Source: a virus. Taken from it: DNA of 35,242 nucleotides. The notes beneath the pieces are model-generated. The model saw only the letters and a program-made list of their open reading frames with translations. It did not search any database and was not told the origin of the DNA. This document shows positions 1-33,090 of the stretch, in pieces (position 1 is the stretch's first letter; each line of letters starts with the position of its first letter). The stretch covers positions 1-35,242 of IMG/VR virus record IMGVR_UViG_3300031237_000020; one strand, written 5' to 3'. The translations under genes were made by a program, and so were the position numbers.

Positions 1-222
1 GACGTTGTTATCACGGATTGCCGCTACCCGAACGAGGCCGAGGCAATCAAGGCGCAGGGCGGCTACGTCATTCGCATCGAGCGCCCCGGAGTCGGGCCAG
101 CCAACGACCACCCGAGCGAGAACAGCCTTGACTCATGGCCGTTCGACGGCTGGGTCCGCAACGACACAACCCTCGAAGGTCTCCGTCACTCGGCGGGGGT
201 CCTGTTCGCTAGCTTCCAGTGA
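1..222 (+). CDS. Deoxynucleoside monophosphate kinase, C-terminal part (5' end outside window)
   Basis: The reading frame is open from the first base and stops at 220-222, giving 73 residues. It begins with DVVITDCRYPNEAEAIK and continues through GGYVIRIERPG, a DHPSEN motif and NDTTLEGL. This series (DxRxPNEAE, then a beta strand, then HxSE, then N-D-x-T-x-x-x-L) is characteristic of the C-terminal half of phage dNMP kinases related to T4 gp1. Those enzymes phosphorylate dNMPs for dNTP supply. The P-loop half lies upstream of the window. The stop overlaps the polymerase start by 4 nt (GTGA), so the two are probably translationally coupled. Confidence 0.8.
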   Translation, partial: DVVITDCRYPNEAEAIKAQGGYVIRIERPGVGPANDHPSENSLDSWPFDGWVRNDTTLEGLRHSAGVLFASFQ

Positions 223-1967
223 GCGTGAGCGACCTGGACGGCATCCGGGTTCACTTCGTAGACGACACCGAGGGCTGCCTTGAGTTCCTCACCTGGCTCG
301 GGGAGCGCCGACCGATCCTCGCAATCGACACCGAGACAACCGGCCTTGAATGGTGGACGCCCAACTTCACGCGGCTCGTGCAGTTCGGTGACGGCCAGCA
401 GGGCTACGCCTTGGACGCTCTCAAGTGGAGAGGGACGATCCAAGAAGCGCTTGCCTCCCTGCACTCCACTCCGACAGCCTTCCACAACATCAACTTCGAC
501 CGGCACGCCCTCTCCAGCGACGGGTTCGGGTTCCCGGACCCGCGGAGGGCGCACGACACGAAGGTAATGTCCCACCTCGTCAACAATCTCGGGCCGCACA
601 GTCTGAAGCCTCTGTCCGAGAAGTTCTGGCCGGGGTCATCGGCGGGCCAAAGCCTGCTGAAGCAGACGATGGCGAAGAACCGCTGGACCTGGGAGACCGT
701 CCCGGTGGACCACCCGCATTACTGGTCCTACGGGGTGCTCGATACGATTCTCACGGCTCGGTTGGCGGAGAAGTTGTACCCGCAGGTACCGCTCGAAGCC
801 TATGAGCGGGAGATGCAGGCACAGGGTGTCCTGTACCGGGCGGAGGCCCGCGGGCTCAGGATCGACGTGTCCTACGCTGCCTGCCTCCTCAGTGACTACG
901 CCAATGAAGCTGAAGTTCTCTTGCGAGAACTTCAGGACCTCGGGGTGAAGAACCCTTCCAGCAACCGTCAGGTGCAACAAGCCCTTGAAGATGCAGGCTG
1001 GGAGCCGGACGAGTTCACGGAGACGGGCGCTGCGAAGCTCGACAAGGTCGTGCTAGCCGACTTGGCACAGACCCTCGGGGTACACGCCGACGTAGCAACG
1101 CGGGTGCTGCGCTACAAGCGCCTGGTCAAGTGGTCCTCGGCGTATCTCCTAGGCTTTACCGGGAGCGGCGGGAGAGTGCACGCCTCGATCAACACCCTCG
1201 CTGCCCGCACAGGGAGAATGAGCATCACGAACCCGGCCCTCCAGACCCTCCCGAGGGGGACGGAGATCAAGAAGTCTGTTCTGCCGGAGGAGGGCTGCTC
1301 CCTCCTCGAAGTCGACTGGCAAGCACAGGAGGCCCGCATCTTCGCGTACTACTCGGGCGACCAAGGACTGATCGACGCCTTCAACGGGGGTGAGGACATT
1401 CACACGTACACGGCGTCCAAGGTTTACAGCACCGCTCAGGACGCTGTGCGTCCTGAGCAGCGCCAGATCGCCAAGAACGTGACCTTCGCCAAGCTCTACG
1501 GGGCAGGCCCCGACAAGATCGCCGCTACTGCCGGGGTGCCGGTCTCGGAGGTGAAGGGGTTTCTCGACGGGTACGACCGGGCGTTCCCTGGTGTCCCTCG
1601 GTTCATGGACGAGGTTGACCGGGCGGTGCGCGGGAGGTTCCTCTCCGAGAAGCGGATGTACGTTTCTACCTACGGGGGGAGGCAGGTCTGTGTCGACCCG
1701 GACAAGGCGTACGTGGCGGTGAACGCTCTGATCCAGGGGTCGGGGGCGGACATCATCAAGCAGACCATCTGTGACCTTGACGCCCAGGGGCTCGGGGATT
1801 ACATCGTCGTCCCCGTGCATGACTCTCTGCTATTCTCCATCCCCGAAGAAGGATTCGCCGAGATACGTGAGGAGATCATCGCTGTGATGACCCGCCCGCT
1901 CGCCCCGCTCACACTCACCGTGGACGCCTCGGCCCCCCTCAGCTCGTGGGGGTCTAAGAGTGCCTAA
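219..1967 (+). CDS. polA: PolA-type (family A) DNA polymerase with 3'-5' exonuclease domain
   Basis: The 582-residue protein is the likely replicative polymerase. The N-terminal half is a DnaQ-like proofreading domain: exo I is AIDTETTG (D37, E39), exo II is NINFD (N90-D94) and exo III is YGVLD (Y171-D175). The C-terminal half has the Pol I palm and fingers motifs. Motif A is LEVDWQAQEARIFA (D366), motif B is RQIAKNVTFAKLYG (R415, K419, Y427) and motif C is VPVHDSLLF (H534, D535). Motif C has serine where most family A enzymes have glutamate (HDE). There is no 5'-3' nuclease domain, as is usual for phage enzymes of this size. The GTG start overlaps the upstream stop as GTGA. The gene contains two perfect 11-bp inverted repeats, described separately. 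Confidence 0.96.
   Translation: MSVSDLDGIRVHFVDDTEGCLEFLTWLGERRPILAIDTETTGLEWWTPNFTRLVQFGDGQQGYALDALKWRGTIQEALASLHSTPTAFHNINFDRHALSSDGFGFPDPRRAHDTKVMSHLVNNLGPHSLKPLSEKFWPGSSAGQSLLKQTMAKNRWTWETVPVDHPHYWSYGVLDTILTARLAEKLYPQVPLEAYEREMQAQGVLYRAEARGLRIDVSYAACLLSDYANEAEVLLRELQDLGVKNPSSNRQVQQALEDAGWEPDEFTETGAAKLDKVVLADLAQTLGVHADVATRVLRYKRLVKWSSAYLLGFTGSGGRVHASINTLAARTGRMSITNPALQTLPRGTEIKKSVLPEEGCSLLEVDWQAQEARIFAYYSGDQGLIDAFNGGEDIHTYTASKVYSTAQDAVRPEQRQIAKNVTFAKLYGAGPDKIAATAGVPVSEVKGFLDGYDRAFPGVPRFMDEVDRAVRGRFLSEKRMYVSTYGGRQVCVDPDKAYVAVNALIQGSGADIIKQTICDLDAQGLGDYIVVPVHDSLLFSIPEEGFAEIREEIIAVMTRPLAPLTLTVDASAPLSSWGSKSA
910..935. repeat. Perfect 11-bp inverted repeat, loop TTGC, inside the polymerase gene
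   Basis: The left arm CTGAAGTTCTC (910-920) is the exact reverse complement of GAGAACTTCAG (925-935), separated by TTGC. It lies over codons of about residues 231-239. No T-run follows, so it does not look like an intrinsic terminator. Confidence 0.9.
1434..1458. repeat. Perfect 11-bp inverted repeat, loop TGT, inside the polymerase gene
   Basis: GCTCAGGACGC (1434-1444) pairs exactly with GCGTCCTGAGC (1448-1458) around TGT. It lies 524 bp downstream of the other polymerase hairpin and just before motif B. Its CTCAGGAC core also occurs in the hairpin at 11681. Confidence 0.9.
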
Positions 1968-2481
1968 CCCCCGTATGTATGAGACGTGGCCGTGCGGTTC
2001 ACCGCCAGCGTCCGGGCAGCGGCAGCGGTATCCCGGTCGCTTCGAGTACCACCTGCGAAAGAACTACCCCGAGTTCATGGAGCCGACAGTGCTCCACATG
2101 TTCGCTGGCTCGTGCGAATGGGGTACGTCAACGGATCTGCGCGCCGAGACGGGCTGTGACATTCCCGCGCCGTTCGACGCGATTCCGTGCGAGGACGGGT
2201 CGTTCTCGGCGGTGCTCGCTGATCCGCCGTACGCCGACCACTACCAGAATGAGTGGGGCGGCGATCTTCCGAAGCCGAAGCACATTCTCCGCGAAGCGGT
2301 GCGGCTCTCCGCGCTAGGAGGGCTCGTCGGCATCCTCCACATCATCATCATCCCCGCCTACAAGGAATTCGGGGTCGAGCGCGTCGGCATCCACCCAATC
2401 CTCGCTGGCCCGAACAACGCTGTCCGAGTATTCAATGTGTTTCGGACCCCCCTAAGTCAATCGTCGTGGGGCTCGAAGTGA
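1960..2481 (+). CDS. Methyltransferase-like protein with DPPY motif
   Basis: The 173-residue protein has VLHMFAGSCEWG (residues 45-55), which resembles the SAM-binding loop of Rossmann methyltransferases, and VLADPPYADHY (DPPY at 88-91), the catalytic motif of N6-adenine and N4-cytosine DNA methyltransferases. The most likely role is modification of phage DNA, but no target-recognition domain is visible and the substrate is unknown. The GTG start at 1960 overlaps the polymerase stop by 8 nt; an ATG at 1975 is an alternative. A histidine and isoleucine stretch (GILHIIIIPAYK) probably forms a core strand. It is the first of three SAM-type proteins in this operon. Confidence 0.7.
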   Translation: MPNPRMYETWPCGSPPASGQRQRYPGRFEYHLRKNYPEFMEPTVLHMFAGSCEWGTSTDLRAETGCDIPAPFDAIPCEDGSFSAVLADPPYADHYQNEWGGDLPKPKHILREAVRLSALGGLVGILHIIIIPAYKEFGVERVGIHPILAGPNNAVRVFNVFRTPLSQSSWGSK

Positions 2482-2621
2482 AGGTCCGGTGGTGGAGCAT
2501 CGTTGACGAGAACGGCAAGGTCATCTGGTCTGGGTCCGCAGAGGACCCCCCGGATCTGGAATACGAAGAAGGTCTGCGAGTCGTCTGGGGTGCGGACGGG
2601 GTGTTTCGTGTCTCTCCCTAG
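2478..2621 (+). CDS. Small hypothetical protein (47 aa)
   Basis: The 47-residue product begins MKVRWWSIVDENGKVIW and ends VVWGADGVFRVSP. It is rich in tryptophan and acidic residues, and the alternating hydrophobic pattern suggests a small beta sheet. I do not recognise a family. The GTG start at 2478 was chosen because it forms a GTGA overlap with the preceding stop, the dominant junction type here; a GTG at 2466 is possible. The 3' end overlaps the start of the metallopeptidase gene by 14 nt. Confidence 0.6.
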   Translation: MKVRWWSIVDENGKVIWSGSAEDPPDLEYEEGLRVVWGADGVFRVSP

Positions 2622-2946
2622 GCTCATCAGGGTTGGTGCTCGCCGGTACACGGTGCGGTGCAACCAATCTGCAATCGACTCGGAGAGCGTCGAGGCCGGG
2701 GCCGAGCTGCACGGGGTGACCAACAACACGGCCATGAGAATCGTCCTCAACCCGAAGAACAGTGAGGACCGGCAGCGGGATACACTCCTGCACGAAGCGC
2801 TGCACGCAATGTTCAACGTCGCCGGGATCGACCAGGATCTCGGGTCGGACACCGAGGAACGGGTCGTGAACCGGCTCGCTCCGATCCTGCTGGACGTTCT
2901 GACTCGGAACCCAGCTCTCACGGAATACCTGACAGGAGGACGATGA
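2608..2946 (+). CDS. Putative zinc metallopeptidase, HEALH motif
   Basis: The 112-residue protein contains TLLHEALHAMFNVAG, a clear HExxH zinc site (H62, E63, H66), followed about 17 residues later by an acidic patch (DTEERVVNRL) that could supply the third ligand of a gluzincin-type site. Small single-domain proteins like this are common in phages and are often annotated only as metalloproteases. The target is unknown; a host regulator or nuclease inhibitor is speculation. The GTG start at 2608 gives a compact domain. The frame is open further upstream, but that part lacks family features and would overlap the whole preceding gene. Confidence 0.65.
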   Translation: MSLPRLIRVGARRYTVRCNQSAIDSESVEAGAELHGVTNNTAMRIVLNPKNSEDRQRDTLLHEALHAMFNVAGIDQDLGSDTEERVVNRLAPILLDVLTRNPALTEYLTGGR

Positions 2947-3089
2947 CCGAGAGTGAACTGAACTACTGGATCAGGAACATGGATGAGTGGAGCAGTATTG
3001 CTGACGGGTACGTCAAGATTATCAATGACCTCAATCGCCGGATTATTCCAGCGTTCTTTCTAGGGGTGCTTGTGGGGGTGTTGTGGTAA
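2943..3089 (+). CDS. Small membrane protein (48 aa)
   Basis: The frame starts with an ATGA overlap and ends in TAATG at the resolvase gene, so both ends fit the operon's coupling pattern. The product begins MTESELNYWIRNMDEW, has an amphipathic middle with NRR, and ends in a hydrophobic segment, IIPAFFLGVLVGVLW, long enough to span a membrane. It is a C-tail-anchored type of small protein with no recognised family. A membrane or lysis-accessory role is possible but unsupported by position. Confidence 0.6.
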   Translation: MTESELNYWIRNMDEWSSIADGYVKIINDLNRRIIPAFFLGVLVGVLW

Positions 3090-3520
3090 TGATGACACTT
3101 GCGATAGACCCCGGTCTTGTGACCGGGTGGGCACTCTACCCTGGGTTCATCTCGGGGCAGGTCGAGGGGCGGTTCGCTTTCTACAACTGGTTCGAGGGCA
3201 TCCCCGCACCGGATCGGGTTGTCTGCGAAGACTTCCTCATCTCGGAGCGGACCATCAAGGCGAGCCGCCAAGCGGACCCGCACCGGATCATCGGGTACCT
3301 CGAAGGCGTATGCTACGAGCGGGGGATCGAGTTCTACCTCCAGACCCCGGCGCAGGCCAAGTCCTTCGCTTCAGATGACAAGCTCCGCGCCGTTGACTGG
3401 TTCTTTCCCTCCAAGGGCGGACACCAGAACGACGCTGCCCGCCATCTGCTCACCTGGCTCGTGAAGCACCCGACCGAGGGCAAGGCTCTCCGTGAGCGCC
3501 TGGCTGGGGTGCTGCTGTGA
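3089..3520 (+). CDS. RuvC-like Holliday junction resolvase
   Basis: The 143-residue protein has the RNase H-fold nuclease signatures of RuvC enzymes: TLAIDPGLVTGWAL (D7), RVVCEDF (E47) and GGHQNDAARHL (H112, D115). The length is close to that of phage RuvC-like resolvases. It probably cleaves four-way junctions formed during replication or recombination, resolving branched DNA before packaging. The ATG at 3089 was chosen for its TAATG overlap with the preceding stop; a GTG at 3083 would add two residues. It precedes the Dam-type methyltransferase with a GTGA overlap. Confidence 0.85.
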   Translation: MMTLAIDPGLVTGWALYPGFISGQVEGRFAFYNWFEGIPAPDRVVCEDFLISERTIKASRQADPHRIIGYLEGVCYERGIEFYLQTPAQAKSFASDDKLRAVDWFFPSKGGHQNDAARHLLTWLVKHPTEGKALRERLAGVLL

Positions 3521-3996
3521 GTAAACCGCGCCTAAACAATGGGATGTTCACGTCAGCAACGGATGATTGGGAAACCCCCGCCGACTTCTTCTCCATGCTG
3601 GACACGGAGTTCCACTTCACCCTGGACGTGTGTGCCTCCGCCTCCAACTCCAAGTGTCCCCGGTTCTTCTCAACAGACGACAATGGGCTTTCCCAGTCAT
3701 GGTCAGGCGTGTGTTGGATGAACCCACCCTACGGTCGAGAAATCGGAGAGTGGGTTCGCAAGGCATACGAGGAATCGCAACGCGGAGCGACCGTCGTCTG
3801 CCTCATCCCCGCCCGAACTGACACCGCCTACTGGCATGACTACGTGATGAGGTCGAGCGAGGTTCGCCTGGTCCGTGGGAGATTGCATTTCGGAGGGAAG
3901 GCAGACAAAGGGCACAATGCCCCGTTCCCGTGCGCTGTCGTCGTGTTCCGTTGGGGGTCGTATACTCCGTACTTCTCGTCGGTGGGTCGGCGGTGA
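3517..3996 (+). CDS. Dam-family DNA N6-adenine methyltransferase
   Basis: The 159-residue protein matches the phage Dam-like family over its length: DDWETPADFF near the N terminus, LDVCASASNSKCPRFFS, NGLSQSW, then WMNPPYGREIGEWV with the catalytic NPPY at 69-72, followed by VVCLIPARTD and a C-terminal GRLHFGG. The family transfers a methyl group from SAM to adenine N6, typically protecting phage DNA from host restriction. No cognate restriction enzyme is present in the window. It starts with GTG in a GTGA overlap with the resolvase stop and ends in a GTGA overlap with the helicase start. Confidence 0.92.
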   Translation: MSKPRLNNGMFTSATDDWETPADFFSMLDTEFHFTLDVCASASNSKCPRFFSTDDNGLSQSWSGVCWMNPPYGREIGEWVRKAYEESQRGATVVCLIPARTDTAYWHDYVMRSSEVRLVRGRLHFGGKADKGHNAPFPCAVVVFRWGSYTPYFSSVGRR

Positions 3997-5807
3997 GGGC
4001 AGCGCTGTCCTTCGGGGCGGACGGCCAGTTCAACATTGAGGCCGGACCCCGCGACACGGACCTGCTCAAGCAGATCCCTGGGGTCAACCACAACCACAAG
4101 CTCGGGTGCTGGGTCGCGAAGCCCGCCTGGAGCACCGCCCTAGCCCTCCGGGCAACCTTCGGGGAGGATCTCACAGTTCACGAATCCGTGAATGAGTGGG
4201 GCCGGGAGTTTCTCCAGATGGAGTCTCTCGCCGCTGGGCTGAAGGCCGGGCTCTACGAGGAAGCCCTGTCCTCCTTCGCGTGGGCCGAGGACGCCTACGG
4301 GTTCCAGGTGTCCGGGTCAGCGCTGATGTCCGAGCACGCGCAGGTCCTCAACTATGACGAGATGGGGGCTGGCAAGACCATCCAGGTGGCCGTTTCACTC
4401 CGCAGGCTCGTCTCGCAGGAAGCCAACCCCTACCCGGTCCTCATCGTCTGCACCAACTCGATGAAACAGAAGTGGGCTGAGGAGCTGACGAAGTGGGTCC
4501 CGGAGATTCACACCTTCACTGTCGGGGGTTCTGCCGCCCTCCGCCGCCGTCAGATTGCCGAGGCAAAGGAGTTCGCTGAGGGCGGGGCCAACGTAGCCGT
4601 CATCGCTAACTGGGAGAGCCTTCGGCTGCACTCCCGTCTGGCCGGGTACGGGAGCATCTCCCTGAAGCGCTGCGTCGAGTGCGCCGGTACCGCTGGGGAC
4701 CCGACACTCACCGAGGCCAAGTGCGAGGTTCACCCGAAGGATCTCAACCTGTTCGGGTTCCGGACGGTTGTGCTGGACGAGGCACACAAGGCGGCGGACC
4801 CCCGAGCGAAGCAGACACGGGCAGCGTGGGCGTTGGCGCACGCTGCTACGTACCGTTGGGCGCTGACCGGGACCCCGGTCAGGAACAGCCCCGAGGATCT
4901 GTGGTGCATCATGCACGGCATCGACCCGGTCAACTGGCCGTCCAAGTCCCGGTTCATCGACCGCTACACGATCTCGCACTACGGCGGGCACGGTCTTGAG
5001 GTGTTCGGGTTCAACATGGCGACGAAGCCGGAGATGGACCGCTTCTTCGAGATGCGCTCCATCGGACGACCAAAGTCCGTGATTCTCCCGTACCTGCCTC
5101 CTGTCCGATATGAGACGATCCACGTCGAGATGGGCGCTAAGCAGGCGAAGGCGTACGAGCAGATGGCGGAGCACATGATGACGATGATTGATTCAGAGAT
5201 ACTCACCGCCCCCGACCCGCTCACTCAGCAGACTCGTCTCCACCAGATCAGCGCTGCTACGCCGGTCATCGAGGTTGACGCCGACGGGCGTCCGCAGGTC
5301 ACCGCCCTTGCCGCCCCCTCTTGCAAGATCGACGCCCTCGTGGACCTGATTGACGAGAGGTGCGGGGCACCCCTCGTTGTGTTCGCTGAGTCCCGGAAGC
5401 TCTTGGAGCTGGCGGCGTCCACCCTCGACTATCACAAGATCGGTAACTGCTCGGTCACCGGCAAGGTCCCCCCGGAGCAACGAGCGGCTAACGTAGCCGC
5501 TTTCCAGGACGGGGTGACCCAGGTCATCCTCGTGTCCCTCGGGGCAGGAGCGGAGGGGATCACCTTGACGGCGGCGGATACCGCTGTGTTCCTCCAGCGG
5601 TCCTACAAGATGACATCGAACCTCCAGGCGGAGGCTCGTATCCACCGGATCGGACAGGAGCATGACAAGGTGACCTACATCGACATCATCACGAAGGGGA
5701 CCCTGGAGTACGCTCTGCACGAAGTCGCCCTCAACAAAGAGGAGATTCTCCAGGAGGTAGTCCGGGACCCGGCGTGGGTCCGGCGGGCAATCAGGGGTGA
5801 GGTATGA
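3993..5807 (+). CDS. SNF2/DEAH-type superfamily 2 helicase
   Basis: The 604-residue protein carries helicase motif I YDEMGAGKTIQ (about 121-131), motif II LDEAH (261-265), motif III ALTGTPVRN, and in the C-terminal lobe ILVSLGAGAEGITLTAAD and FLQRSY...QAEARIHRIGQ (motifs V-VI), the SNF2 pattern. Such phage proteins are DNA-dependent ATPases likely to act in replication restart, fork remodelling or protein displacement. Between motifs Ia and II there is a C227xxC230...C244xxH247 cluster that could bind zinc. The GTG start at 3993 gives the GTGA coupling; an earlier in-frame start at 3930 would overlap the Dam gene and looks unlikely. Confidence 0.93.
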   Translation: MRAALSFGADGQFNIEAGPRDTDLLKQIPGVNHNHKLGCWVAKPAWSTALALRATFGEDLTVHESVNEWGREFLQMESLAAGLKAGLYEEALSSFAWAEDAYGFQVSGSALMSEHAQVLNYDEMGAGKTIQVAVSLRRLVSQEANPYPVLIVCTNSMKQKWAEELTKWVPEIHTFTVGGSAALRRRQIAEAKEFAEGGANVAVIANWESLRLHSRLAGYGSISLKRCVECAGTAGDPTLTEAKCEVHPKDLNLFGFRTVVLDEAHKAADPRAKQTRAAWALAHAATYRWALTGTPVRNSPEDLWCIMHGIDPVNWPSKSRFIDRYTISHYGGHGLEVFGFNMATKPEMDRFFEMRSIGRPKSVILPYLPPVRYETIHVEMGAKQAKAYEQMAEHMMTMIDSEILTAPDPLTQQTRLHQISAATPVIEVDADGRPQVTALAAPSCKIDALVDLIDERCGAPLVVFAESRKLLELAASTLDYHKIGNCSVTGKVPPEQRAANVAAFQDGVTQVILVSLGAGAEGITLTAADTAVFLQRSYKMTSNLQAEARIHRIGQEHDKVTYIDIITKGTLEYALHEVALNKEEILQEVVRDPAWVRRAIRGEV

Positions 5808-6409
5808 CTGTTCTGGCGATCGACAAGTACCCCACGAACGGGCATCTCATCGCCGCCTGTGCCCAACTCGGGTATCTGAGGGAGGACTGGCGAACGCTCG
5901 ACCCTACCTACGGGCTGGGGGTCTTCTGGTCCGTGTGGAGGCCGACCTTCCTAGTCGGCTCTGATCTTGACCCGGCGAAGTCCCCGACAGGGACCAGCGT
6001 GGACGCTACTGCGCTACCGCACGCTGACCGTTCATTCAACAGTGTCGTCATTGACGGCCCGTACAAACTGAACGGGACGCCGACTGACAGTAGCCGGTAC
6101 GGGGTTCACGAACCAACCCGGTGGCAGGACCGCATGGGGCTTCTGTCTCGGATGCTGGCCGAGGGCGCTCGCGTTCTCGTGGACGGCTACCTCTTGTTCA
6201 AGTGCCAGGATCAAGTGGTCAGTGGTAAGGTGCGCTGGCAGACGCAGGTGTTCGCGAACGAGGCCGAGGCGTTGGGTCTCGGGTTGGTAGATCGGCTTGA
6301 TTACTTGTCTTACCGACCGCAGCCCAGCGGCACCCGGCAGGTCACGGCCCGCCGTAACGCGTCCTCAATGCTCGTGTTCAAGAGGGGGTGGCGTAGCGGT
6401 GTTCTTTGA
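5804..6409 (+). CDS. Methyltransferase-like protein with DGPY motif
   Basis: The 201-residue protein resembles phage SAM-dependent methyltransferases: DPTYGLGVFW (33-42) as a SAM-loop candidate, VGSDLDP (51-57) with the acidic ribose-binding position, DATALPHADRSFNSVVIDGPYKLNG with DGPY at 84-87 in the place of (D/N)PPY, and LVDGYLLFKCQDQV. DGPY is an unusual variant, so DNA, RNA or another substrate is possible. The C terminus (SGTRQVTARRNASSMLVFKR) is basic, consistent with nucleic-acid binding. It is coupled by ATGA to the helicase. Confidence 0.65.
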   Translation: MTVLAIDKYPTNGHLIAACAQLGYLREDWRTLDPTYGLGVFWSVWRPTFLVGSDLDPAKSPTGTSVDATALPHADRSFNSVVIDGPYKLNGTPTDSSRYGVHEPTRWQDRMGLLSRMLAEGARVLVDGYLLFKCQDQVVSGKVRWQTQVFANEAEALGLGLVDRLDYLSYRPQPSGTRQVTARRNASSMLVFKRGWRSGVL

Positions 6410-6641
6410 GCATTTGTCCGAGGAGCAGTTGGAAATGATGGAGCTGGCGGGGTACTACGTTCCTGATCTCCCTCCCCCGGAGGATCCGAAACTGGTACGC
6501 GCTCTCCGGGCGGCGCAAGCCACGCTCCACAAGGGCGACAGTTTCATGCAGCATCTTCAGGAAACTGAAGCAGCGATAATCAACCGAGCGGTGACCGCCG
6601 CCTGGGAAGTGTTCAAGGAGGATGAGAGTGAAGCCTTGTGA
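6399..6641 (+). CDS. Small hypothetical protein (80 aa)
   Basis: The 80-residue acidic, mainly helical protein begins MFFEHLSEEQLEMMELAGYYVPDLPPPEDPK and ends AAWEVFKEDESEAL. The GTG start at 6399 overlaps the preceding stop by 11 nt. The frame is open further upstream, but that part has a shadow-like arginine and serine composition. A CTTCAG-GAAA-CTGAAG hairpin (6 bp, GNRA-type loop) lies inside at about 6555-6570. No family is recognised. Confidence 0.6.
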   Translation: MFFEHLSEEQLEMMELAGYYVPDLPPPEDPKLVRALRAAQATLHKGDSFMQHLQETEAAIINRAVTAAWEVFKEDESEAL

Positions 6642-6771
6642 CGGAACTTGGCAGGATTACCTGCGCCACAACAAGAGGAAGGAACGACCGTGCGCTGAGA
6701 GCTTGAAGGCGTGGCGGGCCTACGTCTCGGAAGCACGAGATCGACAGAGGAAGAGAGGCAAGGACGTATGA
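6628..6771 (+). CDS. Small cysteine-containing basic protein (47 aa)
   Basis: The product reads MKPCDGTWQDYLRHNKRKER, then PCAESLKAWRAYVSEAR and a basic tail. The pattern (P)CGT-x(3)-YxRHxxRxE-x-PCxxCxxAxxxY recalls a small family common in actinobacterial phages, where both ends carry cysteines; here only C4 and C22 remain. Its function is unknown. A helical, DNA-binding role is plausible from the charge (KRKER, RDRQRKRGK). It overlaps the preceding gene by 14 nt and the next by an ATGA. Confidence 0.6.
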   Translation: MKPCDGTWQDYLRHNKRKERPCAESLKAWRAYVSEARDRQRKRGKDV

Positions 6772-6971
6772 GGATCGCCATCACCGAGAACCACCCGGAC
6801 GGCCCTCTCAAGATGGACCTCGTGGTCCTCTACTTCCCGGACGATGCCGACATCGAGGTTGACATTGTCGAGGATGAGGAGGATCATTGGGCGAACCGCT
6901 GGGTGGCGAAGCCGCTCACTGTCCGGTCCCTGAAGCGTCGGATCACACTCAAGAACGGAGACATCGTATGA
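6768..6971 (+). CDS. Small acidic hypothetical protein (67 aa)
   Basis: The 67-residue protein runs from MRIAITENHPDGPLKMDLVV through YFPDDADIEVDIVEDEEDHWANRW to a KRRITLKNGDIV end. It looks like a small beta-rich domain with a strongly acidic centre. Both ends are ATGA overlaps, which supports translation in this frame. No family is recognised. Confidence 0.6.
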   Translation: MRIAITENHPDGPLKMDLVVLYFPDDADIEVDIVEDEEDHWANRWVAKPLTVRSLKRRITLKNGDIV

Positions 6972-7291
6972 ACCCGTACTACAATCCTGAGGACTTTGGG
7001 CTTTCGATAGTGGGAAGTCTTGAAGATCCCGAAGCCTGCTACACCTTCAATTATCTTGTTGCGTGGGGGCACGACGAGTCCGGGAAGGTCTACTGGGCAA
7101 AGGACTCCGGGTGCTCCTGCCCCACCCCGTTCGAGGACTTCTACTCGTTGGAGGATCTCACACTCGTCACCAACGAGACGTGGGGGGAGTTCCAGAAGGC
7201 TGTCGAGAGCCACTGTTGCTATGACCCTGACACGCTGGCTGCTGATCGAACGGCCCTCCTTTCTCGTGTCTCTGCGATGGTCCCTCGGTGA
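6968..7291 (+). CDS. Hypothetical protein with DSGCSCPTPFE motif (107 aa)
   Basis: The 107-residue protein starts MNPYYNPEDFGLSIVGSLEDP and contains YLVAWGHDESGKVYWAKDSGCSCPTPFEDF. The 'YNPE.FGL...' start and 'DSGCSCP.PFED' block recall a family of uncharacterised proteins frequent in actinobacterial phages (I believe DUF7574; not checked). Function is unknown. The two close cysteines and a later CC pair could bind metal. It is coupled by ATGA at its start and GTGA at its end, between two small proteins and a nuclease. Confidence 0.65.
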   Translation: MNPYYNPEDFGLSIVGSLEDPEACYTFNYLVAWGHDESGKVYWAKDSGCSCPTPFEDFYSLEDLTLVTNETWGEFQKAVESHCCYDPDTLAADRTALLSRVSAMVPR

Positions 7292-8211
7292 CCACGAGAT
7301 ACATCCGCCAATCCGCAATCAAGTCCTTCAAGACCTGTCGGCGGCAGGCCATGCTCGACTACTTCCAGGACGGCACCGGATACGAGAAGGCCCCCGACCC
7401 TGAAGCTCCGGCGTCCGGTGGCCGCGATGTCGGGACCCTCGTGCACGCCGGGGTCGAGGCGTACTACCGGGGCCTGGACCCGCTCCGCCCAATCTCAGAG
7501 GCGCATGCTGAGATGTCCCGTGAAGCCGCCGCTTCTGACACGCCCCTAGCCCCTGCTTGGGAGGATGCTTTCAACCTCGCTCGGATCATGGTCCAGGGCT
7601 ACGTGGAGTGGGTGGCTGCCGAGGGAGCCGACGTGGGCGAAGAAACCGTCGGTACTGAGATACCGCTGGAATCTGAAATCGGGGTCTTCGAGGGCGACCT
7701 CGTCATCGTCACCGGGAAGTTGGACCGCCTTGTCCGGGACACGGTGACCGGCGAATACATCATCGAGGACACGAAGACAGTCCAGGCGTTCGATGACCTT
7801 CGGTGGCTCCGGGTGGCCGACCAGCTCCTCACCTACAACGTCCTCTTGAGGCTTCAGGAGGTCCCGATCAAGGCGAACCGGGCTCGGCACAACCAGATCC
7901 GCAAGGTGAAGCGGACAGCGGCGGCGAAGCCCCCGTTCTACAACCGGGTGGAGCACCCGTTCAACGACGTGCAGGTCCAGAACTACTGGGCCGGTCTCGT
8001 GGAGACACTCCGGGAGATGGTCCGCACCATCCAGGCCATCGAGGCCGACCCGGAGGCGCATCACGCCTACGCTCCCCCGACCGCCACCCGCGATTGTACC
8101 TGGCGTTGCTCGTTCCTTGAGCTGTGCCCGATGATGAGTGACGGGAGCCACTGGCGCTCCGCCCTCACTGACCTATACACTCCGAGGCCCAAGCGAGAGG
8201 ATGCAGCATGA
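7288..8211 (+). CDS. Cas4/RecB-like PD-(D/E)XK nuclease with Fe-S cysteines
   Basis: The 307-residue protein has the nuclease core: GTLVHAGVEAYY with motif H53, GKLDRLV (D146) and YIIEDTKTVQAFDD (E160, K163), followed by RVADQLLTYNVLL, the RecB/Cas4 'QL..Y' motif. One cysteine near the N terminus (FKTCRR, C17) and three near the C terminus (DCTWRCSFLELC; C269, C273, C279) are placed as the four iron-sulfur ligands of Cas4 and AddB-type nucleases. It probably degrades or resects DNA ends and feeds the neighbouring recombinase. No Cas1/Cas2 or CRISPR array is nearby. The GTG start is coupled by GTGA. Confidence 0.9.
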   Translation: MTTRYIRQSAIKSFKTCRRQAMLDYFQDGTGYEKAPDPEAPASGGRDVGTLVHAGVEAYYRGLDPLRPISEAHAEMSREAAASDTPLAPAWEDAFNLARIMVQGYVEWVAAEGADVGEETVGTEIPLESEIGVFEGDLVIVTGKLDRLVRDTVTGEYIIEDTKTVQAFDDLRWLRVADQLLTYNVLLRLQEVPIKANRARHNQIRKVKRTAAAKPPFYNRVEHPFNDVQVQNYWAGLVETLREMVRTIQAIEADPEAHHAYAPPTATRDCTWRCSFLELCPMMSDGSHWRSALTDLYTPRPKREDAA

Positions 8212-8471
8212 TCTACCGCAAGAAGCCCGTCACCATCCAAGCCCTCCAGTGGAACCCAGGGAGCCCGAACGAGGAGAAGATCATCACGGCGTGGTTCGCG
8301 CACCACGACGTGAACGTCATCTTCAACGACGACGACACGATCAGTCTCCCCACCCTCGAAGGCACGATGACCGCTCAGCCGGGTGATTGGATCATCCGAG
8401 GGGTCCAGGGAGAGTTCTACCCCTGCAATCCCAGCATCTTCGAGGCGACCTACGACAAGGTGGAGTTCTGA
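8208..8471 (+). CDS. Conserved phage hypothetical protein, RKKPVxIxAxQW type (87 aa)
   Basis: The 87-residue protein begins MIYRKKPVTIQALQWNPG and ends with GDWIIRGVQGEFYPCNPSIFEATYDKVEF. This N- and C-terminal pair is widespread in phages and prophages (RKKPVVIEAxQW; GDWIIxGxxGEFYPCKPxIFexTYexVe). No established function is known to me. It lies between the Cas4-like nuclease and the Sak4-like ATPase, overlapping the former by ATGA and the latter by TGATG. Confidence 0.8.
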   Translation: MIYRKKPVTIQALQWNPGSPNEEKIITAWFAHHDVNVIFNDDDTISLPTLEGTMTAQPGDWIIRGVQGEFYPCNPSIFEATYDKVEF

Positions 8472-9187
8472 TGCTGTCTCTCACCGCACTCGTCCACGGA
8501 GACTCCGGCACCGGGAAGTCCTGGTTCGGAGCATCCGGTCCGGGTCCTCGGCTCGTCATCGACGCTGAGGGGCGGGGTCTGTACCTACCTACCCCTGACA
8601 AGGTGTTCTGGGATCCTCGAACGGAGATCCCCCTCGACCGCATCGGCCCGGATACGACGGTGATTGCCACCGTTCGGAACTTCGCTGAGTTCGAGCTGTC
8701 CTACCAGTGGCTTGCTTCCGGCAAGCACCCGTTCGTGTCGGTGACGCTTGACTCGGTGTCCGAGCTTCAGCAGCGCTGCATTGACAACGTGGCCGGTACC
8801 GGGCAGATGCAGACCCAGGACTGGGGTGACGTTCTCCGGGAGATGGACGCCATCATCCGCAAGATGAAGGACCTTCGCACGCACCCGACCCAGCCGCTAC
8901 AGTCTCTCGTTGTGCTCGCTGGCTCGAAGGAGCGGGCGGGCAAGCAGAGGGCCATGGTCCAGGGGCAGCTCGCTGATTGGATCCCCTACAGGTTCGATCT
9001 CGTGGGGTACCTCACCCTCAACCTGGACGCTTCAGGCAACGAGTTCCGTTCCATGCTCATCAAGCCCATCGGTCTCTACGAGGCCAAGGACAACACACAC
9101 AAGCTCAGCCAGCACTACGGGACTCACATCGTGAACCCGAACATCTGCGAGATGCTCGCAGTTCTCAACCAGCAGGAGGCAGCATGA
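8471..9187 (+). CDS. RecA-fold ATPase, Sak4-like recombinase candidate
   Basis: The 238-residue protein has a Walker A at the extreme N terminus (ALVHGDSGTGKSWF, residues 6-19) and a Walker B-like strand (PFVSVTLDSVSEL). RecA-core, single-domain ATPases of this size with an N-terminal P-loop are typical of phage Sak4-type single-strand annealing and exchange proteins. Known Sak4 proteins often need a co-encoded ssDNA-binding protein, which fits the next gene. ATG at 8471 was chosen over an upstream in-frame start that would run through the previous gene. It could alternatively be an accessory ATPase without annealing activity. Confidence 0.8.
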   Translation: MLSLTALVHGDSGTGKSWFGASGPGPRLVIDAEGRGLYLPTPDKVFWDPRTEIPLDRIGPDTTVIATVRNFAEFELSYQWLASGKHPFVSVTLDSVSELQQRCIDNVAGTGQMQTQDWGDVLREMDAIIRKMKDLRTHPTQPLQSLVVLAGSKERAGKQRAMVQGQLADWIPYRFDLVGYLTLNLDASGNEFRSMLIKPIGLYEAKDNTHKLSQHYGTHIVNPNICEMLAVLNQQEAA

Positions 9188-9783
9188 CCACGTACAACTT
9201 CGCTCAGCTCCAGGAGGAGGCCAAGGCCGAAGGGTTCAGCAACGAGCTGATCCCGGACGGCACCTACTTGATGGAGGCGGCGAACGTCAACATCTCCTCC
9301 TCGCAGGGGGGCAAGGACCAGATCGGGGTGCGCTGGAAGGTCCTGGAGGGTCCGCTCGCCGGTCAGTCCTCCTGGGACAACCAGACCATCTCGCCGGAGA
9401 ACGGGAAGGCGATGGGGTTCTTCTTCCGGTTCTGTGCTCAGTTCGGGATGGACGCTGCGTTCTTCTCGCGGCAGCCCCAGCCGACGCTCGCTGAGATCCA
9501 GCAGCGGATCGAGGGCACGGTCGCCACCGTCAAGGTCGGCAACCGCACCTGGAAGCAGCGCCCCGGAGCCCAGGGCGACCCGAAGCGGACCAACACCTTC
9601 GCGGTGCAGGGCACGGTCGAGGGCGGGAGCGCCGCCTTGGCGGGAGGCCCGCCCCCTCCGCCTGTGTACGTCCAGCCCCCGGCACCGGCTCCTGTGCAGC
9701 AGATCCTTCCTCCCCCGTCAGTGGTCCCCTCCACCACGCCCCCCATCGACCCGGCAACGGGGCTGCCCGCCCGCTCCTTCTAG
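9184..9783 (+). CDS. DUF669-like single-stranded DNA-binding protein candidate
   Basis: The 199-residue protein has a folded N-terminal part (about 1-140): IPDGTYLMEAANVNIS, GKDQIGVRWKVLEGPLAGQSSWDNQTISPEN and TVATVKVGNRTWKQR. This layout is like the DUF669 phage proteins that lie beside recombinases and behave as ssDNA-binding proteins. The C-terminal ~55 residues are proline-rich (PPPPPVYVQPPAPAPVQ) and probably disordered. Unlike classical SSB there is no obvious acidic tip; it ends GLPARSF. It is coupled by ATGA to the Sak4-like gene, so a joint recombination role is inferred. Confidence 0.72.
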   Translation: MTTYNFAQLQEEAKAEGFSNELIPDGTYLMEAANVNISSSQGGKDQIGVRWKVLEGPLAGQSSWDNQTISPENGKAMGFFFRFCAQFGMDAAFFSRQPQPTLAEIQQRIEGTVATVKVGNRTWKQRPGAQGDPKRTNTFAVQGTVEGGSAALAGGPPPPPVYVQPPAPAPVQQILPPPSVVPSTTPPIDPATGLPARSF

Positions 9784-9790
9784 GGGCACT

Positions 9791-12238
9791 GTGGACTGGA
9801 ACTACTCGGCGGGCGTTGACCCGGCGTACATCAAGACCAATCTCCCAATCACCTACGTCCTTGAGACGGCAGGGTTCCCGGTCACGCCCGCCGATGGGAA
9901 GGTCCAGTCCCGCTGCCCGTTCCACCCGGACAGCAACCCGTCCTTCGACGTGTACGGGGAGAACCTCGAACGGTGGGGGTGCTACCCGTGCTCCCTCGGG
10001 GGAGACGTTCTCGATCTGGTGGCCCGCCTGTACGGGCTCGGGAACTTCTCTGACACGATGGACCGCTGTGAGGCGCTCATCAAAGAGAAGGCGGCGTCCG
10101 GGTGGGACGGAATCACGACGGGGGCACCCAAGCAACCGTTTGATTGGGAAGAAGCCCGCAAGCTCGTGGAGGCGGCACGCACCCTAAGTGACTCGCTCCC
10201 TACAATCTCCGCGTTCCTTGACGCGAAGCTGGCAACCTCCCCCGGTCTCAACGTCACAGCCGGGTGGCTAGTCCACGAGTTCCGGATCGGGGTGTCCGGC
10301 CCCGAGATTGTCATTCCCTACTACAACAGGGATGACGATCTGGTGTCCTATAAGCACCGAACACCGAACAGCAAAGCCCTTTCCCCGAGGGGAAGCAATC
10401 AGTTCGATGACGTGCTCTACGGGGAGTGGAAGGACGACGGCGAAGCCGTCATCCTGCTCTGCGAAGGCGAGTCCGACGTGTGGGCGGCTACCGCTGCCGG
10501 GTTCCTGGCTCTCGGGCTGCCCACGGGGGCAGGGGCACAGCCCCGGCAGGCTCCCCGGTTGGCGAACCGGAAGGTCATCCTCGCGTTCGACGGGGACGCG
10601 GCGGGCAGGGCGGCGCTCCCGAAGTGGTGGCAGGCCCTCAGAGCCGCCGGAGCGGAGGTCCTGATTGCCCCCGTGCCCGACGGGACCGACTTGGCAGGTC
10701 TGACACACGAGGCTATCCGGGAGGTAGTTTCCCGTGCCCGGCCTGTCACCGAGGTCCCGTCGGGGCTCGGGGTATCCGAGACCGGGTACTACCGGCCCGG
10801 AAAGGAGACGAACACCCCGATATCAAACTGGGTATTCACCCCCGAGCGGGAGCTGCGCGGGGACGGAGGGAGTGCCTACGAGGGAACGGTCAACGGGCAC
10901 GAGGCGGTGCTGTCCTCCTACGATCTCGGGACGAAGGCCCGCGTCGTCGGGTGGAGCACGAAGAACGGCGGAGCCTGGTACGGGGCCGACCGGGACGCTC
11001 AGCTCCTTCTCGGCACGCTTCAGGCGCAAGGCCCGTTCCTCTCGTCCGGGAGGATGGCCACGGTCGCCGGGCTGCACGAGGGCCAGTTCATCTGGCCGGG
11101 TGGGCGGATCGGGTCGGACTATTGGGTGTATGTGGCCCCGTCCACGGACGTTCACCTCTCGGAGAGGATCTTTCTCACCGAGGGTGACTGGTCGCCTTCG
11201 CAGATCCCGGTGCTCCGCTCGTTGCACGAGCGGAGTGTCATGGACCCGATGCTAGCCTGGATGGCGATAGCGCCTCTCCGATCCATGCTCCGGGAGTTCC
11301 CGGTCCTCGCTGTCACCGGGTCCTCCGGCTCCGGCAAGACGACCCTGCTGGAGACGGTGCTGTCGAACTTCACGGGTTCACTGATAACAAACAACTTGAC
11401 GGCTACCACCCGACACTCGGTGTTTGCCTTCGTCGGGTCCACCAACGCCTTCCCGGTCTGGTTTGACGAGTACCGCCCCGGCGCTCGCAAGGATGCCATC
11501 GAGTCCCTGAATCAGCTCCTCCGGGACGCTTACACGGGACAGGCATCCTCGAAGGGCGGGATGGGGGAGCACTGGGCCGAGGTGGTCTCTGTTCCTACCT
11601 CTGCTCCGCTGATCGTGTCGGGGGAGGATGCCTTCTCGGAGACGAGCCACACGGAGCGGATGATGTTGCTCGCTTTGCCAGTCTCAGGACGAAGTCCTGA
11701 GACCTTGGAACGCGTCAAGTCCTGGGGTCCTAACGGGCTGGCTCACGCCTACCTGACCTGGCTGTACGTCGGGCTCCAGGAGGGGTTCCTCCCGGTCATC
11801 CGAAACTTCGACGCCGGGCCGGATGAGTTGCCCCCGAGGCAGCGGCTATCTCTGGGGGTGCTCACCCTCGGGTGGGCGTTGCTCCAGCAGTTCGTTCGCA
11901 CCTTCGACGCCGGGATCTCCCTCGGGGACCCGGACTTCAGCCTCGTCATCAATGAGGGACGGGAGTCCAGCAAACACAATCCGATACAAGATGCTCTCAT
12001 CTGGTGCCTTGACGAGTACGACGCCGTGGAGTTCATCTCCGCCGACGAAGACCACGTGTACGTCAGAGTGGAGAACTTCATCCACTATGTGACAGCCAAA
12101 GGCGGGTTCGCCCTCCCCGGCGGGACGAAGGCGGTGGCGTCCTTCCTACGCAATCACTACAAGTCCACGGAGGGGGTTGGGTTCTTCGCTGGCAGTAGCA
12201 AGCGGGCTATGGTCCTCGATAGGCACCTGCTATCGTGA
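9791..12238 (+). CDS. DNA primase-helicase (zinc finger, TOPRIM, P-loop ATPase)
   Basis: The 815-residue protein joins priming and unwinding. The N terminus has a CHC2-type zinc finger, RCPFHPDSNPSF...WGCYPC (C42, H45, C64, C67). A TOPRIM domain follows, with ILLCEGESDVWAA (E225) and VILAFDGDAAGRAA (D267, D269). The C-terminal third has a Walker A VTGSSGSGKTTL (about 508-518) and a Walker B-like FPVWFDEYRP (about 555-563). The ATPase does not look like a DnaB RecA-fold; DUF927-type or AAA+ is my best guess. The GTG at 9791, 7 nt after the previous stop, gives a start just before the first folded element. The gene holds two perfect 10-bp hairpins. Confidence 0.92.
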   Translation: MDWNYSAGVDPAYIKTNLPITYVLETAGFPVTPADGKVQSRCPFHPDSNPSFDVYGENLERWGCYPCSLGGDVLDLVARLYGLGNFSDTMDRCEALIKEKAASGWDGITTGAPKQPFDWEEARKLVEAARTLSDSLPTISAFLDAKLATSPGLNVTAGWLVHEFRIGVSGPEIVIPYYNRDDDLVSYKHRTPNSKALSPRGSNQFDDVLYGEWKDDGEAVILLCEGESDVWAATAAGFLALGLPTGAGAQPRQAPRLANRKVILAFDGDAAGRAALPKWWQALRAAGAEVLIAPVPDGTDLAGLTHEAIREVVSRARPVTEVPSGLGVSETGYYRPGKETNTPISNWVFTPERELRGDGGSAYEGTVNGHEAVLSSYDLGTKARVVGWSTKNGGAWYGADRDAQLLLGTLQAQGPFLSSGRMATVAGLHEGQFIWPGGRIGSDYWVYVAPSTDVHLSERIFLTEGDWSPSQIPVLRSLHERSVMDPMLAWMAIAPLRSMLREFPVLAVTGSSGSGKTTLLETVLSNFTGSLITNNLTATTRHSVFAFVGSTNAFPVWFDEYRPGARKDAIESLNQLLRDAYTGQASSKGGMGEHWAEVVSVPTSAPLIVSGEDAFSETSHTERMMLLALPVSGRSPETLERVKSWGPNGLAHAYLTWLYVGLQEGFLPVIRNFDAGPDELPPRQRLSLGVLTLGWALLQQFVRTFDAGISLGDPDFSLVINEGRESSKHNPIQDALIWCLDEYDAVEFISADEDHVYVRVENFIHYVTAKGGFALPGGTKAVASFLRNHYKSTEGVGFFAGSSKRAMVLDRHLLS
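11213..11235. repeat. Perfect 10-bp inverted repeat, loop TGC, inside the primase-helicase gene
   Basis: CTCCGCTCGT (11213-11222) pairs exactly with ACGAGCGGAG (11226-11235) around TGC. In RNA the stem can grow by three G-U wobbles and a G-C pair on the outside. No T-run follows. Confidence 0.9.
11681..11703. repeat. Perfect 10-bp inverted repeat, loop GAA, inside the primase-helicase gene
   Basis: GTCTCAGGAC (11681-11690) pairs exactly with GTCCTGAGAC (11694-11703) around GAA. It is 468 bp after the other hairpin of this gene, and its CTCAGGAC core is shared with the hairpin at 1434. Confidence 0.9.
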
Positions 12239-12242
12239 GTAA

Positions 12243-12512
12243 ATGGAAACCCTCCTCATCGCCGTCGTCACGGCCTTCGGGTTGATCGTGGGGGGGACAC
12301 TCCCCGTCCTTATCGGGACATCCAGGCGAACGAAGGAGATGCACTCCGAGCTGACACCCAACGGGGGGGCCTCAATCAAGGACTCGATTTCCAGAATCGA
12401 GGCACGTATCGGGCGAATCGAGGCGTGGAACGACCAGCACGAGCTGCGCGACACAATATTCCAGGAGTACGTACACAAGAAGTTACTGCTCAGGGAAGAA
12501 CAGTCCCCGTAG
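12243..12512 (+). CDS. Membrane protein with coiled-coil tail (89 aa)
   Basis: The 89-residue protein has one N-terminal membrane segment (METLLIAVVTAFGLIVGGTLPVLIG), a basic stop (TSRRTK), and then a heptad-like stretch, SIKDSISRIEARIGRIEAWNDQHELRD. This topology is like the DUF2746-type membrane proteins of actinobacterial phages, whose function is unsettled; a holin-like or replisome-anchoring role is possible. It starts 4 nt after the primase stop. A 7-bp hairpin (CTCGATT/AATCGAG) lies at about 12383-12401. Confidence 0.68.
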   Translation: METLLIAVVTAFGLIVGGTLPVLIGTSRRTKEMHSELTPNGGASIKDSISRIEARIGRIEAWNDQHELRDTIFQEYVHKKLLLREEQSP

Positions 12513-12519
12513 GAGGCAC

Positions 12520-13311
12520 ATGACCGTCCACCTCATAGTTCCCGACACACAAGTCAAGCCGGGGGTGCGAACAGATCATCTCGAATGGATCGGGCAATAC
12601 ATCCTGGAGCGGAAGCCTGACGTGGTTGTCCACCTCGGGGACCATTGGGACCTCCCGTCGCTCAGCTCGTACGACAAGGGCAAGAGGGCTATGGAAGGCC
12701 GACGGTACCTCGATGACGTGCAAGCGGGGAACGACGCCTTGGCGTTGCTCACCGCCCCAATCAAGCGGTACAACCGCTCTCGCAGGTTCCGAAAGACCGA
12801 CGAGTACGCCCCCCGCCTGGTCCTCCTGCGCGGGAACCACGAGAACCGGATCGAGCGGGCCATCGAGGACAACGCTCAGATTGAGGGGGCCGTAAGTCTC
12901 GACCACCTGGAGTCCCCAGGGTGGGAGGTACACGACTTCCTTGAGGTTGTGTTCATCGACGGGGTTGCGTATTCGCACTACTTCTACAACCCGATGACAG
13001 GCCGACCGTACGGCGGGCAAAGCATTGACACCCGGCTGAAGACCATCGGTCATTCATTCACCATGGGGCATCAGCAGGGTCTCTGGTACGGGCTCCGCCC
13101 CACCCTCGGGGGGATGCACCACGGACTCGTGGCGGGGAGCTGCTACCTGCACGACGAGGTGTACCTGGGGCCACAGGCGAACGACAACTGGCGCGGGATC
13201 GTCGTGTGCCACCAGGCCGAGAACGGGACATACGATCCTATGTTCGTCAGCCTCGACTATTTGTGCCGCCGGTATGAGGGAGTGGCCCTCGGGTCGTTCC
13301 TTTATGGCTAG
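12520..13311 (+). CDS. Calcineurin-like metallophosphoesterase
   Basis: The 263-residue protein carries the dinuclear metal motifs of the family: LIVPDTQVKPG (D9) near the N terminus, VVVHLGDHWDLPSL (GDxxD/GDH block), LLRGNHENRI (GNHE), and later a histidine-rich GHSFTMGHQQG. The family hydrolyses phosphomono- or phosphodiesters; in phages proposed substrates include nucleotides and DNA or RNA ends, and the exact substrate here is unknown. It has a good ribosome binding site (GGAGG, about 5 nt from the ATG) and is not overlapped at its start, unlike most genes here, so it may be translated independently. Confidence 0.88.
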   Translation: MTVHLIVPDTQVKPGVRTDHLEWIGQYILERKPDVVVHLGDHWDLPSLSSYDKGKRAMEGRRYLDDVQAGNDALALLTAPIKRYNRSRRFRKTDEYAPRLVLLRGNHENRIERAIEDNAQIEGAVSLDHLESPGWEVHDFLEVVFIDGVAYSHYFYNPMTGRPYGGQSIDTRLKTIGHSFTMGHQQGLWYGLRPTLGGMHHGLVAGSCYLHDEVYLGPQANDNWRGIVVCHQAENGTYDPMFVSLDYLCRRYEGVALGSFLYG

Positions 13312-13735
13312 AAGCGGACGGCCCAGGAAGTACCCCCCTGTTTGCTCTGTCGATGGGTGTAGCCGGGTCCACAACTGTAAGGGATTATGTCAGTTTCACT
13401 ACCATCGGGTACGAAGGACCGGGTCTCCTGGGTCTCCAGAACCGAAAGTGTACGGTAGGTCCCGCAAGAATCCTGATGGGTATGTGATCGTCCGAGTAGG
13501 GGGGAAGCCACAACTGGAGCACCGACTGGTGATGTCTCTCTATTTGGGTAGGCCCCTTACGGGGTATGAGACTGTCCACCATAAGAACGGCGTACGCGAC
13601 GACAACCGCCTAGAGAACCTGGAACTGTGGACCTCCCCTCCTCACCGGGGCCAGCGTGTTGATGATCTAATCAGGTGGGTAGTCAGCGCTTACCCGAACG
13701 AAGTGGAATTAGCCTTGGTAGAGTTCCTCGCATGA
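13304..13735 (+). CDS. HNH endonuclease, homing type, with N-terminal zinc motif
   Basis: The 143-residue protein has an N-terminal CSVDGCSRVHNCKGLCQFHYHRVRR, the CxxxxC...GLCxxHYxR block common in phage HNH proteins, then a DGYVIVRV strand and the nuclease core LEHRLVMSLYLGRPL...ETVHHKNGVRDDNRLENLELW (HNH with DNRxENLE). It probably nicks or cuts DNA and is likely a selfish free-standing homing endonuclease. It overlaps the phosphoesterase stop, has no clear ribosome binding site, and its DNA is less GC-biased than its neighbours, which suggests separate acquisition. Confidence 0.9.
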   Translation: MARSGRPRKYPPVCSVDGCSRVHNCKGLCQFHYHRVRRTGSPGSPEPKVYGRSRKNPDGYVIVRVGGKPQLEHRLVMSLYLGRPLTGYETVHHKNGVRDDNRLENLELWTSPPHRGQRVDDLIRWVVSAYPNEVELALVEFLA

Positions 13736-13923
13736 GCATCTACCGGAGAATCCGTCGCAACCCTGTGATGGTCGGGGCATCCCTGGTGATGCTCCTCGAC
13801 TATCTGGAGTCCGGGGACCCGATCACCTGGCGGTCAGCCGCCGTGCTCGTGGTCGGAATCGCTGTCCGGTGGAAGGTCACCCCGACTCGCGAGGTTCTCC
13901 TAGCGCTGGAGCAGGGCCTCTAG
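13732..13923 (+). CDS. Small membrane protein at the end of the plus-strand operon (63 aa)
   Basis: The 63-residue protein begins MSIYRRIRRNPVMVGASLVMLLDYLESG, and has a second hydrophobic segment, AAVLVVGIAVRW. That gives a basic N terminus and two possible membrane passes joined by a short acidic turn, a topology compatible with a small class II-type holin. Holin function is only a guess, since the endolysin lies on the other strand 17 kb away. It starts as ATGA with the HNH stop, and its TAG stop shares CTAG with the convergent 1187-aa gene. Confidence 0.65.
   Translation: MSIYRRIRRNPVMVGASLVMLLDYLESGDPITWRSAAVLVVGIAVRWKVTPTREVLLALEQGL
13920..13923. other. Convergence point: two stop codons sharing one CTAG
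   Basis: The palindrome CTAG contains the TAG stop of the plus-strand gene (13921-13923) and the TAG stop of the minus-strand gene (13920-13922 read on the other strand). There is no intergenic space and no terminator hairpin here, so converging transcripts must run into the opposite gene. Confidence 0.95.
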
Positions 13924-22323: not shown

Positions 22324-22767
22324 CTAGGGGAGGGCAATGAACGGGCGATGCTCCCCTAGTTCCTTGCCAATCTCCCAGTCCACCCGCTCTCGGGCACCCA
22401 CGAGGTCGTCTACGAGAGTCTGGGTGCGTTCCTCCTCCAGGCGGTCGTTGTGGTCGAGGACGCGAGCCAGGACGGCTTCGCCGTCCTGGCCCCGCCGTGC
22501 GTCGTGCTGGATCAGGCGGATGATGAGGCTCCGGTCCAGCGGGGTGTCAGGACCAGACCGGCACACGATGCTCTCAGACCCGTCCTCCTCGAACCGGACG
22601 AGAAGCCAGCGGTGATCCTCGGTTCGGTAGAGGGCGAGGCGCTCGTCGCCCTCCCACCCGAGAGTGGGATCCCCGTAGTGCAACCGGTCGATGATGTCCT
22701 GGACTTCGGGCTCGACCATGAGCTGTGCTCCCCCTAGCCGGGGGGTGGACGGGAGAATGAAGGGCAT
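22324..22767 (-). CDS. Hypothetical protein in the head-tail region (147 aa)
   Basis: The 147-residue, strongly charged protein begins MPFILPSTPRLGGAQLMVEPEVQDIIDRLHYGDPTLGWEGDERLALYR and ends with a long helix, RLEEERTQTLVDDLVGARERVDWEIGKELGEH. Position between capsid/HNH and connector suggests a head-completion or assembly role. I recognise no family. The gene contains a perfect 11-bp hairpin at 22466-22490 and an 8-bp one at 22630-22653. Confidence 0.65.
   Translation of the reverse strand: MPFILPSTPRLGGAQLMVEPEVQDIIDRLHYGDPTLGWEGDERLALYRTEDHRWLLVRFEEDGSESIVCRSGPDTPLDRSLIIRLIQHDARRGQDGEAVLARVLDHNDRLEEERTQTLVDDLVGARERVDWEIGKELGEHRPFIALP
22466..22490. repeat. Perfect 11-bp inverted repeat inside the 147-aa gene
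   Basis: GCCAGGACGGC (22466-22476) pairs exactly with GCCGTCCTGGC (22480-22490). The loop is GAA on the coding strand, the same loop as in the hairpin at 11681. CAGGAC recurs in this stem and in those at 1434 and 11681. Confidence 0.9.
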
Positions 22768-23267: not shown

Positions 23268-23297
23268 ACACTACAACAACTGAAGGGCGGAACGCAA
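23268..23297 (-). promoter_or_regulatory. Candidate promoter for the HNH gene at 22772
   Basis: Reading the minus strand, TTGCGT lies just after the capsid terminator and TAGTGT follows 18 nt later (23273-23268), 7 nt before the ATG. The -10 fits TAnnnT; the -35 is a weak match. This would give a leaderless transcript. Based on pattern only. Confidence 0.3.
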
Positions 23298-33086: not shown

Positions 33087-33090
33087 CAGG

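Follow-up and report, generated by a model that had tools for sequence, protein, structure and literature searches.

Tight perfect hairpins inside the genes of a phage, probable footprints of fold-back template switching

Hairpins in the polymerase gene and across the window

The window, by which we mean the whole stretch of DNA analysed, is a virus record of 35,242 bases with 63% GC. Replication genes run rightward (about 219-13,923) and structural genes leftward; the gene maps came from an in-house gene caller, so boundaries are approximate. The DNA polymerase gene at 219-1967 (PF00476, E 5.6e-63; PF01612, E 4.2e-12; phrog_17) carries the two hairpins singled out by the original prediction. 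We found both where they had been placed, at 910-935 and 1434-1458, with arms exact over 11 bp each. The genes and hairpins considered here are as follows:

219-1967, + strand: DNA polymerase family A gene with a 3'-5' exonuclease domain, carrying both polymerase hairpins
910-935, + strand (arms 910-920/925-935): perfect 11-bp hairpin CTGAAGTTCTC-TTGC-GAGAACTTCAG, encoding AEVLLRELQ
1434-1458, + strand (arms 1434-1444/1448-1458): perfect 11-bp hairpin GCTCAGGACGC-TGT-GCGTCCTGAGC, encoding AQDAVRPEQ in a length-variable stretch
3089-3520: RuvC-like gene
9791-12238, + strand: Toprim/zinc-finger primase-helicase-like gene (PF01807, PF13155), holding two hairpins
11213-11235, + strand: perfect 10-bp hairpin CTCCGCTCGT-TGC-ACGAGCGGAG in the primase/helicase-like gene
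11681-11703, + strand: perfect 10-bp hairpin GTCTCAGGAC-GAA-GTCCTGAGAC in the primase/helicase-like gene, with CTCAGGAC in common with 1434-1458
22324-22767, - strand: 147-aa gene, function unknown, holding one hairpin
22466-22490, - strand: perfect 11-bp hairpin with CAGGAC...GTCCTG, in the 147-aa gene
22772-23260: endonuclease VII/HNH-like gene
23296-23324, no strand assigned: intergenic 13-bp hairpin (14 bp with a 1-nt spacer), just 3' of the capsid gene, terminator-like
24664-24689, no strand assigned: intergenic 11-bp hairpin, 5' of the capsid gene

Scanning the whole window with loops of 3-8 nt gave seven perfect stems of at least 10 bp, all with a loop of 3 or 4. Five lie in genes (910, 1434, 11213, 11681 and 22466), which confirmed the earlier count, and two are intergenic. 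We treated the intergenic hairpins at 23296-23324 and 24664-24689 as a separate kind. They fit the intrinsic terminators and stem-loops that flank capsid genes, unlike the in-gene hairpins, which have no T-run and sit inside open reading frames. The original prediction had also reported that neither polymerase hairpin is followed by a T-run. This was correct on both strands, and neither hairpin has the combination of GC-rich stem and following T-run that marks an intrinsic terminator. The major capsid gene of the window has strong terminator-like intergenic hairpins on both sides, and similar hairpins follow the capsid gene in the phages Jasmine, Brad and Casserole.

Excess of tight stems over codon shuffles

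For independent bases we computed an expectation of 0.38 stems, in agreement with the 0.3-0.4 estimated earlier. The original prediction held that hairpins are more numerous here than chance would give, and named beforehand the test of codon shuffling with protein and dinucleotides kept. Under this null model (n = 400 for all-gene counts) the claim was upheld. The polymerase gene alone had 2 stems of at least 10 bp (0.009-0.017 expected), and all window genes together had 5 (loops 3-8; 0.68 expected). The excess lay at loops 3-4, where 5 stems of at least 10 bp were observed against 0.29 expected and 13 stems of at least 8 bp against 2.58; neither count was reached by any of the 400 shuffles. 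At loops 5-8, no stem of at least 10 bp was observed (0.39 expected). A mirror-repeat control at 8 bp or more gave no excess in the window genes (2 observed, 5.5 expected).

Each polymerase hairpin was also improbable given what it encodes and the codon usage of the window. For the 910 hairpin, P was 8/400000 given the encoded protein, and its codons rank within the least usual 3% of stretches in the polymerase gene. For the 1434 hairpin, P was 250/400,000 given the encoded residues.

Resolved by spacer, stems of at least 8 bp in the window genes were enriched at 3 nt (7 vs 0.95 expected) and 4 nt (4 vs 1.02), with no enrichment over codon shuffles at spacers of 0, 1 or 2. This pattern suits a strand that has to turn and points to fold-back hairpins, and we rejected double-stranded dyad binding sites on the same ground. 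Ten-pair stems with one sense-strand G-T pair were not enriched (0 vs 0.52 expected), which suggests, on small numbers, that the pairing is Watson-Crick at the DNA level. A further rise was seen where the spacer is exactly 8 nt, with five stems of 8 bp (14286-14309, 20127-20150, 20230-20253, 22630-22653 and 32672-32695; 0.72 expected).

Comparison with other phages

For comparison we took 40 further phage contigs, whose genes total 1.37 Mb. These showed a mild general excess of tight stems, with 19 of at least 10 bp against 9.3 expected and 164 of at least 8 bp against 117 expected. The window was the strongest outlier, with the highest observed/expected ratio among all 41 contigs. The nearest kin by polymerase identity had no in-gene excess (G006, about 51-52% identical, 1 vs 1.5 expected; G007, 46%, 4 vs 2.0). 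Whether the excess looked widespread depended on the panel of polymerases: one gave 8 vs 0.70 expected, the second 5 vs 2.6. A strong general excess in phage polymerases, as the first panel would imply, was weakened by the second panel and by the 40 contigs.

Conservation in homologous polymerases

The original prediction expected that functional stems would show retained pairing or compensatory change in homologous polymerases. We observed instead that the arms drift: neither the 910 nor the 1434 hairpin was kept in any of 56 homologues, and the best homologue pairs no more than 8 of the 11 positions. Retained pairing or compensatory change of the kind seen in conserved structured RNA was not found in this set. 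At the 1434 site, 74 of 245 cells were paired (shuffled mean 71.8). The 910 site was slightly above its shuffles, although the sequences are related (246/616 paired cells; shuffled 223.9, s.d. 9.2). The leucine encoded at the 910 right arm is kept in 8/8 kin compared, and the left arm is more variable. At the 1434 hairpin the protein varies in length and the left arm matches no kin residue.

Eight stems of at least 10 bp were found in other polymerases of the 56-homologue set, all at other places. A hairpin in the G005 polymerase was considered as the same site as 910-935 and ruled out, as it maps to about 849-872.

Scans of viral contigs with the polymerase, capsid and terminase, together with a genome scan, found no relative more than 52% identical in the polymerase. 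The exact patterns of the 910, 1434 and 11681 hairpins had no match in viral contigs, and a nucleotide search of phages with the window gave no match and no near-identical record. Comparison with homologues this distant (nearest 52% identical) is able to rule out a conserved element that is old, but not one that arose recently. A lineage-specific function of the hairpins would be compatible with a nearest homologue only 52% identical. Over the long times that the 56 homologues cover, the stems were not maintained and showed no compensatory change, as template switching predicts.

A stem sequence common to three hairpins

The window has three copies of CAGGAC...GTCCTG (0.04 expected), each inside a different in-gene hairpin (1434, 11681 and 22466), with stems at 1437-1455, 11685-11699 and 22468-22488. 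All four occurrences of CTCAGGAC in the window are hairpin arms. When arms of the same lengths were drawn at random, about 0.1% of draws had a hexamer common to three of them (P about 0.001); we spotted the sharing post hoc. More than any other observation, it keeps a functional reading in play.

One-arm changes in relatives

In Arthrobacter phage Jasmine (L090), a long structural gene contains the perfect 11-bp stem AGCCCACCGTG-GAAA-CACGGTGGGCT at 25544-25569. In Brad and Casserole, about 91% identical to Jasmine there, the right arm is CACGACAGGCT and the repeat is imperfect. Three adjacent substitutions (ACA to GTG), with one Q/W replacement, separate the imperfect repeat from the perfect stem. 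This is a candidate for a clean template-switch case, in which two relatives supply the direction of change.

The L040 polymerase carries the hairpin CCTCCATGGG-AATC-CCCATGGAGG, and its right arm, CCCATGGAGG, is common to many relatives. Its left arm is changed to the complement of the right, with an L-to-M replacement found in 0/15 relatives. Jasmine and L040 show the multi-base change in one arm that is expected of template switching. These clustered changes were seen at other sites than the window hairpins, for which no close relative was found.

Alternative explanations

We considered whether the window is extreme by chance, having been picked out of many. Judged by the rate observed in other phage contigs, a count of five tight stems has a P of about 1e-4, to be discounted since the window was chosen as striking, and a count of five stems of any loop has a P of about 0.006; some cases of this kind turn up when thousands of windows are scanned. 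Set against this are a codon-shuffle P of about 1e-5, the excess in the larger set of stems of at least 8 bp (P about 3e-6), its concentration at loops 3-4 and the clean mirror control, and we regard chance as unlikely. An assembly or library artefact that made inverted copies in the contig is extremely improbable. For the window, an IMG/VR virus record, no near-identical record was found, which would suit an artefact, but the reading frames are open, the proteins align normally through those hairpins that have homologues, and an artefact would not respect the frames at five sites.

Functional readings were weighed on the same evidence. The roles proposed originally (mRNA processing or stability, polymerase-expression control and resolvase sites) received no support, in that we found no Rfam match, terminator tail, promoter or conservation. 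Selected mRNA elements peculiar to this phage lineage, acting in processing, stability, translation pausing or polymerase-expression control, would account for the coding-sequence excess beyond codon shuffles and for RNA folding that, in each of the five in-gene hairpin regions, is better than in most shuffles (z -2.1 to -4.1). We nevertheless consider them improbable. The stems are not kept in homologues, the excess is absent in the nearest kin, the hairpins had no match in Rfam 15, and no promoter or T-run was found near them. Selection on mRNA should also tolerate G-U pairs, and the lack of enrichment of G-U tolerant stems in the sense strand argues, on small numbers, against control at that level. 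Processing of the RNase III type usually requires longer duplexes. A sequence-specific family of CAGGAC...GTCCTG stems serving as targets of a phage protein, for example a RuvC-like or endonuclease VII-like nuclease, would explain why three of the five in-gene hairpins have the hexamer in common and why every CTCAGGAC copy is a hairpin arm, and genes of both nuclease types are present in the window. This is very doubtful: the hexamer stands 0, 2 or 3 bp from the loop with half sites 3, 7 and 9 nt apart, the 910 arms do not contain it, it is found in 0/174 stems of at least 10 bp of other contigs, and the motif was found after looking. Branch-cutting resolvases are not known to need such a motif. 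It is plausible that the phage has a nuclease able to cut branched DNA, but nothing ties the RuvC-like or endonuclease VII-like genes to the hairpin sites. There is only a slim chance that the window represents a system of dispersed short hairpins with a common CAGGAC...GTCCTG stem, written through codon choice into replication and structural genes and recognised by the phage's own protein.

Fold-back template switching as the probable origin

Our preferred explanation, with a probability of roughly 0.6, is that both polymerase hairpins and most of the other tight in-gene hairpins are footprints of fold-back template switching. The process itself is already known as quasipalindrome correction or sequence-directed mutagenesis. 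During phage DNA synthesis, the growing strand would pause at a short imperfect inverted repeat, fold onto itself over a turn of 3-4 nt, extend for a few bases with one arm serving as template for the other, and then rejoin the original template. A perfect inverted repeat would be left behind, and such events would persist where the residues encoded by the second arm tolerate change. The polymerase hairpins have the perfect repeat and short spacer expected of this process, with 11-bp arms and spacers of 4 and 3 nt.

Switching of the template between the two arms of an inverted repeat, with a preference for short spacers, has been described for coding DNA (PMC8604942), and it makes perfect hairpins (PMC7202029), which can arise in one event (PMC8794818). 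The window resembles quasipalindrome template-switch mutation in E. coli and yeast (PMC7202029, PMC8604942) in its short-spacer perfect inverted repeats within coding DNA, and the multi-base one-arm changes of that system are matched in L040 and Jasmine. It differs in that the ancestral imperfect repeat is not at hand and in that its density of tight hairpins is above that of the 40 comparison contigs. With no relative more than 52% identical in the polymerase, an ancestral imperfect repeat cannot be shown for either hairpin, and we infer template switching as their maker. Coding sequences have earlier been reported to hold more perfect short inverted repeats than composition predicts; the window is alike, although it is a phage genome and its excess is stronger and concentrated at loops 3-4. 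For E. coli, PMC6060812 describes the result as fewer rather than more such repeats in reading frames, which indicates that the effect varies.

Other observations also count against template switching. The outlier status of the window comes with no explanation for a high rate, the CAGGAC...GTCCTG sequence common to three of the five in-gene hairpins is not predicted by simple template switching, the Jasmine case takes its direction from two relatives, and the two sets of polymerases give different pictures of how widespread the excess is. The data suggest that this phage met fold-back template switching unusually often or recently. If so, statistical excess alone would be no ground for calling in-gene phage hairpins regulatory, since a mutation process makes them, and this phage, with an unusually strong template-switch footprint, would be a candidate in which to investigate what replication proteins determine the rate.

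Other features of the genes

Two separate DNA methyltransferase-like genes lie close to the polymerase gene, at 1975-2481 and 3544-3996. The HNH/endonuclease VII-like gene at 22772-23260 lies between the capsid gene and the gene of unknown function and is possibly a homing endonuclease. A primase-like homologue in L098 and L099 (G005 32782-33723, G004 38525-39466) has one in-frame TAG in both related contigs, for which recoding, a split gene or a pseudogene is possible.
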